Origin: an uncultured bacterium
GTDB lineage: Bacteria; Cyanobacteriota; Vampirovibrionia; Gastranaerophilales; Gastranaerophilaceae
Assembly: GCA_946636615.1 (NCBI GenBank)
Contig: CAMPBE010000008.1
Span: 1-39,853 of the forward strand
DNA: 39,853 nt
Reading direction: 5' to 3'
Shown: piece after piece, positions 48 to 410 of the stretch
Layout: each line of letters opens with the position of its first letter
Position numbering within the stretch: position 1 is the first letter of the stretch
Program-made: the position numbers and the translations under genes
Notes under the pieces: generated by a model
Told to the model about the DNA's origin: nothing
Databases searched by the model: none
What the model saw: the letters and a program-made list of their open reading frames with translations, nothing else

Positions 48-121
48 TGGGCCGCAGTGGACTCGAACCACCGACCTCACCCTTATCAGGGGTGCGCTCT
101 AACCACCTGAGCTAGCAGCCC
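48..121 (-). tRNA. tRNA-Ile (anticodon GAU)
   Basis: The reverse strand folds as a full cloverleaf. The acceptor stem GGGCTGC pairs with GCGGCCC (one U-G pair), the discriminator is A, the D-arm is CTCAGGTGGTTAGAGC, the anticodon loop is CTGATAA giving GAU, and the T-arm carries GGTTCGAGTCC. CCA is not encoded. Its 5' half is copied, broken, in the duplication immediately upstream. This copy looks intact and is the only functional RNA gene I see. Confidence 0.95.
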
Positions 122-180
122 ATATCAAATGATACTTTATATTAGCATAAATATTATTTAATTTTCAACCTTAGCATTTG

Positions 181-266
181 AAACCCTTATCAGGCCTCTT
201 GCAAAACGTGACATTTAGTCACCTTTTGCTGCGGCAGAGTACTCTAACCACCTGAGCTAGCAGCCC
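181..266 (-). pseudogene. Broken tRNA-Ile copy with palindromic insert
   Basis: On the minus strand it starts with the exact tRNA-Ile 5' half (acceptor 5' strand and D-arm). It then runs through a foreign segment of about 46 nt and rejoins CCTGATAAGGGT, the anticodon-loop region. The T-arm and acceptor 3' strand are missing, so it cannot fold as a tRNA. An alternative, that it is an unusual functional small RNA, cannot be excluded. Confidence 0.75.
201..229. repeat. 29-nt imperfect palindrome, copy 1
   Basis: The arms GCAAAA and TTTTGC and the inner arms GTGAC and GTCAC surround a 5-nt loop, with one mismatch between the arm pairs. CTCT at 196-199 and AGAG at 236-239 can extend the stem. It interrupts the broken tRNA copy and looks like a small palindromic insert. 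Confidence 0.8.
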
Positions 267-325
267 ATATCAAATGATACTTTATATTAGCATAAATATT
301 ATTTAATTTTCAACCTTAGCATTTG

Positions 326-410
326 AAACCCTTATCAGGCCTCTTGCAAAACGTGACATTTAGTCACCTTTTGCTGCGGCAGAGTGCTCTAACCACCTGA
401 GCCAACAGCC
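326..410 (-). pseudogene. Second broken tRNA copy
   Basis: It has the same organisation as the neighbouring broken copy, but its 5' end differs (GAGGCTGTTGGCTCAGG in place of GGGCTGCTAGCTCAGG). It therefore derives from a second tRNA gene or a hybrid. Acceptor 3' strand and T-arm are absent. It marks the outer edge of the duplicated block. Confidence 0.65.
346..374. repeat. 29-nt imperfect palindrome, copy 2
   Basis: Identical to the copy at 201-229, carried along in the second 145-bp unit. It again sits between a tRNA D-arm and an anticodon-arm fragment. Confidence 0.8.

Follow-up and report, generated by a model that had tools for sequence, protein, structure and literature searches.

What leaves a tandem array of broken tRNA halves, each joined to the same palindrome, beside an intact tRNA gene? 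The locus that raises this question occupies positions 97-410 of the window, the whole 39,853-nt stretch analyzed in this study (contig CAMPBE010000008.1 of the uncultured bacterial assembly GCA_946636615.1). Judging from comparisons with related genomes, the array is probably a tRNA-lodged copy of a REP-like family of non-coding palindromic mobile elements of Gastranaerophilaceae.

TRF assigned a period of 145, 2.2 copies, and 98% matches to 97-410, and a direct-repeat search found two full minus-strand units (inner, 97-241; outer, 242-386) with 99% identity, as well as three 25-nt copies at 96-120, 241-265, and 386-410. The two methods agree with the sequence-only reading, which had described two near-identical units and a partial third. 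Each 145-bp unit contains a tRNA-Ile 5' half, a hairpin element of about 46 nt, an anticodon-arm remnant, and a promoter. The palindrome GCAAAACGTGACATTTAGTCACCTTTTGC was located at 201-229 and 346-374, and the anticodon-arm remnants ACCCTTATCAGG at 183-194 and 328-339, joined to the tRNA halves as that reading had stated.

On the minus strand, the order begins with a probable ancestral tRNA-Ile promoter (457-429, TTGATT...TGCTAACTT), which resembles the promoter directly upstream of the tRNA in loci without the element (L012-L014, L017, and L019). It is followed by a decayed tRNA-Ile 5' fragment (410-386, 92% identity over 25 nt), the outer element (385-340), and the outer anticodon-arm remnant (339-328). 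Then come a promoter-like site (313-284), a tRNA-Ile 5' fragment comprising nt 1-26 and identical to 122-97 (266-241), the inner element (240-195), and the inner remnant CCTGATAAGGGT (194-183); comparison of the junctions revealed that GCACC is missing where element and remnant join. The inner element, delimited like the outer one by alignment of recurring copies, is 46 nt long with the layout ACTCTGCCGCA-stem-TGACTAAATGTCA-stem-AAGAGG, and it folds as single-strand DNA with z = -4.8 against shuffles. The order ends with a predicted sigma-70-like promoter (168-139, TTGAAA-18-TAATAT with a TG extension) identical to the site at 313-284, the intact tRNA-Ile with anticodon GAT directly downstream (122-47; ARAGORN; Rfam tRNA, 63.6 bits), and a minus-strand hairpin followed by a T-run (2-49), likely the tRNA-Ile terminator. 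The single intact tRNA thus stands at the array edge, as first described, and a sequence search found no second full tRNA-Ile(GAT) in the window's genome.

The sequence-only reading assigned the outermost copy to a different tRNA and concluded that two tRNA genes had contributed. This part is not supported: GGCTGTTGGCTCAGGTGGTTAGAGC departs from tRNA-Ile only close to its 5' end, and in relatives (L004, L007, and L010) the outermost copies show damage of other kinds, so the third copy is a tRNA-Ile copy that has decayed. A plain assembly error is very unlikely, because the array lies inside the contig and its architecture recurs across many separately assembled genomes; its true copy number could be under-counted in the assembly. 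On other contigs of the window's genome (G000; C5, C18, C33, C42, and C50), many element copies were found a few hundred bases from contig ends, which suggests that element arrays break short-read assemblies. Elsewhere in the window, 1054-3669 encodes a sensor protein with PDC, SpoIIE phosphatase, and HATPase_c_2 domains, which together with the adjoining STAS protein is a partner-switching stress-response module.

When the 97-410 region was compared with 58 related genomes, tRNA matches were accompanied by a core of about 46 nt recurring at other loci, where the same hairpin lies inside fragments of Leu, Met, Pro, Glu, Lys, and Ala tRNAs. The search for the palindrome in tRNA genes of relatives, proposed as a check on the original reading, therefore turned up the same hairpin within fragments of many tRNAs. 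The element pattern matched at least 111 stretches in the GTDB collection and zero viral contigs. Among the matches listed with informative titles, nearly all were Candidatus Gastranaerophilales/Melainabacteria and one was Muribaculaceae; many others were titled merely 'uncultured bacterium'. The Muribaculaceae-titled record (L064) carries a Gastranaerophilales-like tRNA-Met array, and its contig is probably mis-binned or mis-titled. With the loop left unspecified, a more permissive pattern, CTSTGCCGN{14,40}GAGAGG, was present in 32 of 33 same-genus genomes, against no matches for the reversed pattern used as a control. Across the phylum, it occurred at 1-86 copies each in nearly all sampled genomes of family f1, presumably Gastranaerophilaceae, the window's family, to judge from the record titles of element-bearing loci, as well as in some f6 genomes and one f7 genome, and elsewhere near the chance rate given by the reversed pattern. 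The presence of units is patchy among species, genomes G188, G317, and G322 being element-free, and in three genomes (G002, G103, and G125) the element has spread partly as a passenger of larger repeats. A one-off recombination scar, another option of the sequence-only reading, is excluded by this recurrence in more than a hundred genomes. No description of such an element in Melainabacteria or Gastranaerophilales was found in the literature searched, which includes a minority of the subscription journals, and the hairpin element family is previously unnamed. Papers on a Prevotella repeat and on an Anabaena genome proved to be unrelated.

The element has conserved ends, covarying stem arms, and one of several loop types. 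It is non-coding and about 39-47 nt long, and its consensus consists of ACTSTGCCGA, 6-9 variable stem bases, a short core (TGACTAAATGTCA, NATTRANTATN, or ATCCNGTGAAT), a complementary arm, and GAGAGG. Constant non-standard oppositions, G.A and A.G, lie just inside the conserved ends (A.G in 69 of 70 distinct copies of one length class), and an in-stem G.G opposition was found in 37 of 70 distinct copies of one length class. In an alignment of 33 copies, 93.4% of stem cells were paired, compared with 76.3 +/- 1.3% with shuffled arms, and the covariation score was 0.449, compared with 0.125 +/- 0.017 after shuffling; the score collapsed when the partner was slid by 1-3 columns. Relatedness among copies is not removed by the arm shuffle, but it is retained in the sliding control. 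The window and L004 have identical leaders and spacers around different hairpin types, which indicates that the hairpin is exchangeable as a module. A second base type, A/GGGACTCCG...GGAGG with the TGACTAAATGTCA apex, was noted at L043, L045, L084, and L217; base and apex seem to be exchangeable modules, from the TGACTAAATGTCA apex common to two base types. At three loci (L083, L119, and L154), one element follows directly on another in head-to-tail orientation; its insertion point, GAGAG|GTAGC of the preceding element, is a site of the usual kind. Other palindromic sequences are nested in the element loop or stem at L120 (minus strand, ~4405) and L090 (minus strand, ~7620). A closing stem between the leader and the sequence after the element (CATTTGA/TCAAATG in the window) was also considered and rejected, with a mean longest pairing of 5.8 nt compared with 5.4 nt in mismatched controls (144 units).

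Comparison of the locus across related genomes, also proposed with the sequence-only reading, found the tRNA-Ile locus empty in G016, G026, and G007 and occupied by two units in G018. The empty loci L012-L014 were set against the filled locus L005, whose upstream coding sequence matches that of L012. The empty layout is promoter-X|Y and the filled layout is promoter-X[element]Y'ZX[element]Y'ZX|Y, in which X is the leader plus the 5' half, Y the rest of the tRNA, Y' a piece of Y without its first nucleotides, and Z a promoter-bearing spacer. By this sequence comparison, an occupied tRNA-Ile locus reads X-[element]-Y'-Z-X-Y where its empty orthologue reads X-Y. The intact tRNA is thus kept as the innermost copy, and a new promoter-like stretch lies within Z.

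Association with tRNA genes extends well beyond tRNA-Ile. Of 62 arrays in named loci flanked by 400 nt or more on each side, 40 lay within 300 nt of an intact tRNA, compared with about 1.4% of sequence. The element was found within partial copies of at least 10 tRNA isotypes (recorded as Ile, Leu, Met, Pro, Val, Lys, Thr, Gln, Glu, Arg, Ala, and Phe), sense at tRNA 5' ends and antisense at 3' ends, and most tRNA-linked copies are sense. In both orientations, its 5' side points to the outer, acceptor end of the tRNA gene, and it usually lies in the first arm from that end, i.e., the D-arm when sense or the T-arm when antisense; antisense Met copies can be deeper, and in tRNA-Ile the element occupies the 5' side of the anticodon arm. 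Of the three options in the sequence-only reading, a palindromic element that hits tRNA arms comes closest and is essentially right, but its restriction to the anticodon arm was too narrow, since the D-arm accounts for most cases, the opposite strand mostly uses the T-arm, and other palindromic repeats also serve as sites.

The position of the element at tRNAs follows a simple rule. In all 37 tRNA site classes, defined by isotype, strand, and position, the element begins immediately before a G-N-A triplet as read from where the intact tRNA continues (e.g., GCAGC, GGAAT, GTAGC, GGAGC, GCACC, and GGATTC), compared with a GNA background of 0.127 in the same part of the tRNA. Some of these classes differ by single-base numbering only, and the rule is still far beyond chance with the approximately 25 classes that remain after collapsing by hand; inheritance of many tRNA copies makes the independent events fewer than 37. 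In nearly all resolved cases, the tRNA resumes 4-6 nt further on after the element, with 0-4 extra bases, mostly TA, and no short flanking duplication was seen at the tRNA junctions, where 4-6 nt are replaced instead. Arrays of 2-4 units at 87-145-nt spacing are common. In arrays with at least three equal units, neighbors are mostly 98-100% identical (88% in one). Conservation between isotypes does not extend to the parts of a unit outside the element. The outermost unit of an orthologous Met locus has decayed in G007, and 3'-end arrays duplicate terminator-like stretches and no promoters (L078). In G001 (L215, contig C6), the element interrupts the D-arm of a full-length tRNA-Met, which would not be functional; a second intact tRNA-Met lies on another contig.

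Other copies of the element sit in a REP-like family of palindromic repeats, GTCATNCTGAGC|GAAG|CGAAG. Palindromes of the form GTCATNCTGAGC..GCGAAGNATCTC are abundant (L118 at ~1063-1101, L245, L249, L257, L261, L265, and L272), and several copies per genome hold the element in place of the apical GAAG. A further non-tRNA repeat in G103, GAGTGGC|GTATTAGACAGC, is empty at L243, L247, and L270 and filled at L251 and L259, with the insertion before GNA. In the same genome, element doublets 51 nt apart, resembling REP doublets, were observed at many places (e.g., L251). No empty copies of the CCCTCCCTT repeat were found in the window's genome with the pattern used.

In 79 of 146 units, compared with 16.6 in shuffles, the element was followed within 45 nt by another perfect hairpin (stem of 5 or more). 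Among 35 distinct triloops of these companion hairpins, 24 were GNA on the element strand and none was TNC, and many of the hairpins consist of tRNA sequence followed by its own complement (GGTAGC-GCA-GCTACC and AGTCT-GGA-AGACT). According to the passages of PMC6479982 and PMC11101458 that cite Yoshizawa 1997 and Hirao 1994, GNA loops give extraordinarily stable DNA mini-hairpins. Across whole genomes of the family, GNA triloop hairpins were not in excess (0.12-0.17, compared with 0.125 expected, and alike in other families), so the companion GNA hairpins are a property of element units.

The following sequence of events would fit these observations. The element would insert at the DNA level before GNA, probably into single-stranded hairpin DNA; both orientations relative to the tRNA and GNA triloops on the element strand only argue for a process acting on DNA and not on the tRNA transcript. 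Insertion is deduced here from comparing species, and alone it is insufficient to account for the duplication around the element. On our reading, an insertion would persist where a partial tandem duplication provides an intact tRNA copy, and tandem units would arise because it survives only beside such a copy. Recombination among the repeats (X with X, Y' with Y) may then expand, homogenize, or delete units, and the outer copies would decay over time. As a more specific and tentative proposal, about which we are more doubtful than confident, an undescribed Gastranaerophilaceae enzyme might insert palindromes into folded single-stranded DNA at G-N-A, with tRNA genes preferred since they fold on either strand, and the host might rebuild the tRNA by tandem fold-back duplication.

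No transposase or integrase could be linked to the element. A Y1/RAYT transposase was considered as the mover and rejected for its poor co-occurrence with the element and the rarity of element copies beside Y1 genes. The Y1 family (PF01797) was detected in 62 of 191 family genomes and found neither in the window's genome nor in G002, which holds 41 element copies, and 4 of 41 Y1 loci had the element in the fetched flanks. At L238 (G194), an element belonging to a larger composite repeat (..GTGACCCCATGCACTTGTTG..) has a RAYT-like Y1 gene about 150 nt away. A Y1 transposase may have been supplied in trans in the past.

Two further explanations are unlikely but merit detailed consideration. In the first, each unit would be a small gene, composed of a promoter, a tRNA 5' end, and the hairpin, whose transcript mimics or regulates tRNA, with the hairpin as a protein-binding RNA module. 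The promoter-like site in each window unit, the invariant non-standard G/A oppositions with strong covariation, the RNA fold of the whole unit (z = -3.7), and the sense orientation of the majority of tRNA-linked copies are all consistent with such a structured RNA. However, with antisense copies at 3' ends the tRNA transcript would contain the reverse complement, many copies occur within unrelated repeats, and the content of units beyond the element is unconserved between isotypes, which makes this explanation improbable. In Rfam, only tRNA reached the gathering score and nothing convincingly overlapped the element, so it matches no structured RNA family there. Its G/A oppositions and asymmetric internal loop are loosely like those of self-cleaving ribozymes and kink-turn RNAs. 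A kink-turn or hammerhead-like core was rejected, as the resemblance was partial and by eye and C/G variation at position 4 breaks one C-helix pair; for the hammerhead, two core bases differ.

In the second, the arrays would be a mutational by-product: at tRNA genes, replication forks would stall on G-N-A mini-hairpins, fold-back synthesis there would yield tandem duplications and inverted repeats, and template switching would spread the hairpin, a fragment that does no more than stall forks. The GNA at the insertion point, the second hairpins with GNA triloops and fold-back tRNA copies in many units, and the mini-hairpin stability stated in the passages cited above would agree with this process. 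It is nevertheless doubtful to a high degree, given the background level of GNA triloops genome-wide; conserved ends across the family and many unrelated sites demand a sequence that spreads, and the arrival of the element at a new tRNA is left unexplained.

An attachment-site relic, also offered by the sequence-only reading and supposing that a phage, satellite, or integrative element once in tRNA genes left a restored tRNA and fragments, is very improbable: the units do hold a tRNA half and rebuild the gene like tRNA-integrating elements, but no integrase was found among the ten proteins adjoining the array, the stretch gained over empty orthologous loci consists of only two non-coding units of ~146 bp, no viral contig matched, no att-like core is common to all sites, and the same ~45-nt element occurs in at least 10 tRNA isotypes in both orientations. 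Equally remote is the idea that units are kept by selection since each gives the tRNA another promoter, which the promoter-like site per window unit would favor and which the terminator-like stretches copied in 3'-end arrays (L078) and the patchy presence among species contradict.

If the palindromic element reading is true, a lineage-wide, gene-less miniature element repeatedly lodges in copies of essential tRNA genes, at either end, with a simple before-G-N-A site rule and a strand-specific hairpin signature. For these uncultured gut bacteria, it would also explain the arrays of broken tRNA pseudogenes and part of the contig breaks that occur close to tRNA genes. If insertion into folded single-stranded DNA and rebuilding of the tRNA by the host are also true, they would amount to a novel mode of existence within essential tRNA genes for an element that has no genes. 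The empty and filled sites would also be a tractable set in which to study how one hairpin comes to spread within another, a question raised by REP-like repeats, several of which, such as the CGTC REPs (PMC3733652), lack a known transposase.

Several known systems share parts of this pattern. Like tRNA-integrating islands, phages, and tycheposons, the units insert in tRNA genes with a restoring tRNA fragment, but they are ~90-145 bp long and gene-less, enter at the 5' or 3' side, and use many isotypes; no tyrosine recombinase with att-flanked cargo accompanies them, as the ten adjacent proteins include no integrase and there is no cargo. Integron attC sites resemble the element in their hairpin, conserved ends, variable paired arms, and unpaired positions, whereas inspection of the aligned elements showed no RYYYAAC/GTTRRRY cores, there are no cassettes, and no integrase was found among the ten proteins next to the array in the window. 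The proposed hairpin and single-strand logic and the strand polarity recall Y1 transposition in IS200/IS605. Unlike that system, the element has no fixed left-flank tetranucleotide or linked Y1 gene, and the Y1 transposase expected in the genome for an IS200/IS605 derivative is absent from most tested carriers, including the window's genome and G002.

The palindromic elements of Rickettsia insert in frame into protein genes and are similar as short palindromic insertions that hit functional genes within one bacterial lineage. The hosts of the present element are tRNA fragments and palindromes instead, with the GNA start rule. An element of this kind, RPE-1 of Rickettsia, is mentioned in PMC3733652. 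Bacterial MITEs are likewise non-coding, non-autonomous, and foldable. Their insertion is expected to duplicate the target, and they carry terminal inverted repeats of 15-30 bp, whereas the present element is a single hairpin with 4-6 nt replaced. Such MITEs, among which PMC3733652 lists RUP, NEMIS, and ERIC, span 70-300 bp with long terminal inverted repeats; the element has none beyond its hairpin.

REP elements are the closest kind of known system. REPs are dispersed, extragenic, non-coding stem-loops of 20-40 nt tagged by GTAG or CGTC (PMC3733652), and the element, at 39-47 nt and 1-86 copies per genome, corresponds to a multicopy extragenic stem-loop of about this size. REP dimers are reported as insertions in longer palindromes for Anabaena variabilis, Thermomicrobium roseum, and Halothiobacillus neapolitanus (PMC3733652), and the element is likewise found inside palindromes and as doublets (G103). 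In place of an unpaired GTAG or CGTC tag it has the invariant ends ACTSTGCCGA and GAGAGG, and the bases just 3' of it are often, not always, GTA or GTAG. The link of GTAG REPs to RAYT/Y1 genes is not seen for the element (62 of 191 genomes; 4 of 41 loci), and CGTC REPs are without a dedicated transposase (PMC3733652). Compared with REPs, the element occurs at lower copy number and in tRNA gene copies, and it is set apart by its tRNA-gene targets, its GNA start rule, the modular exchange of its loops, and the tandem units that rebuild the tRNA.
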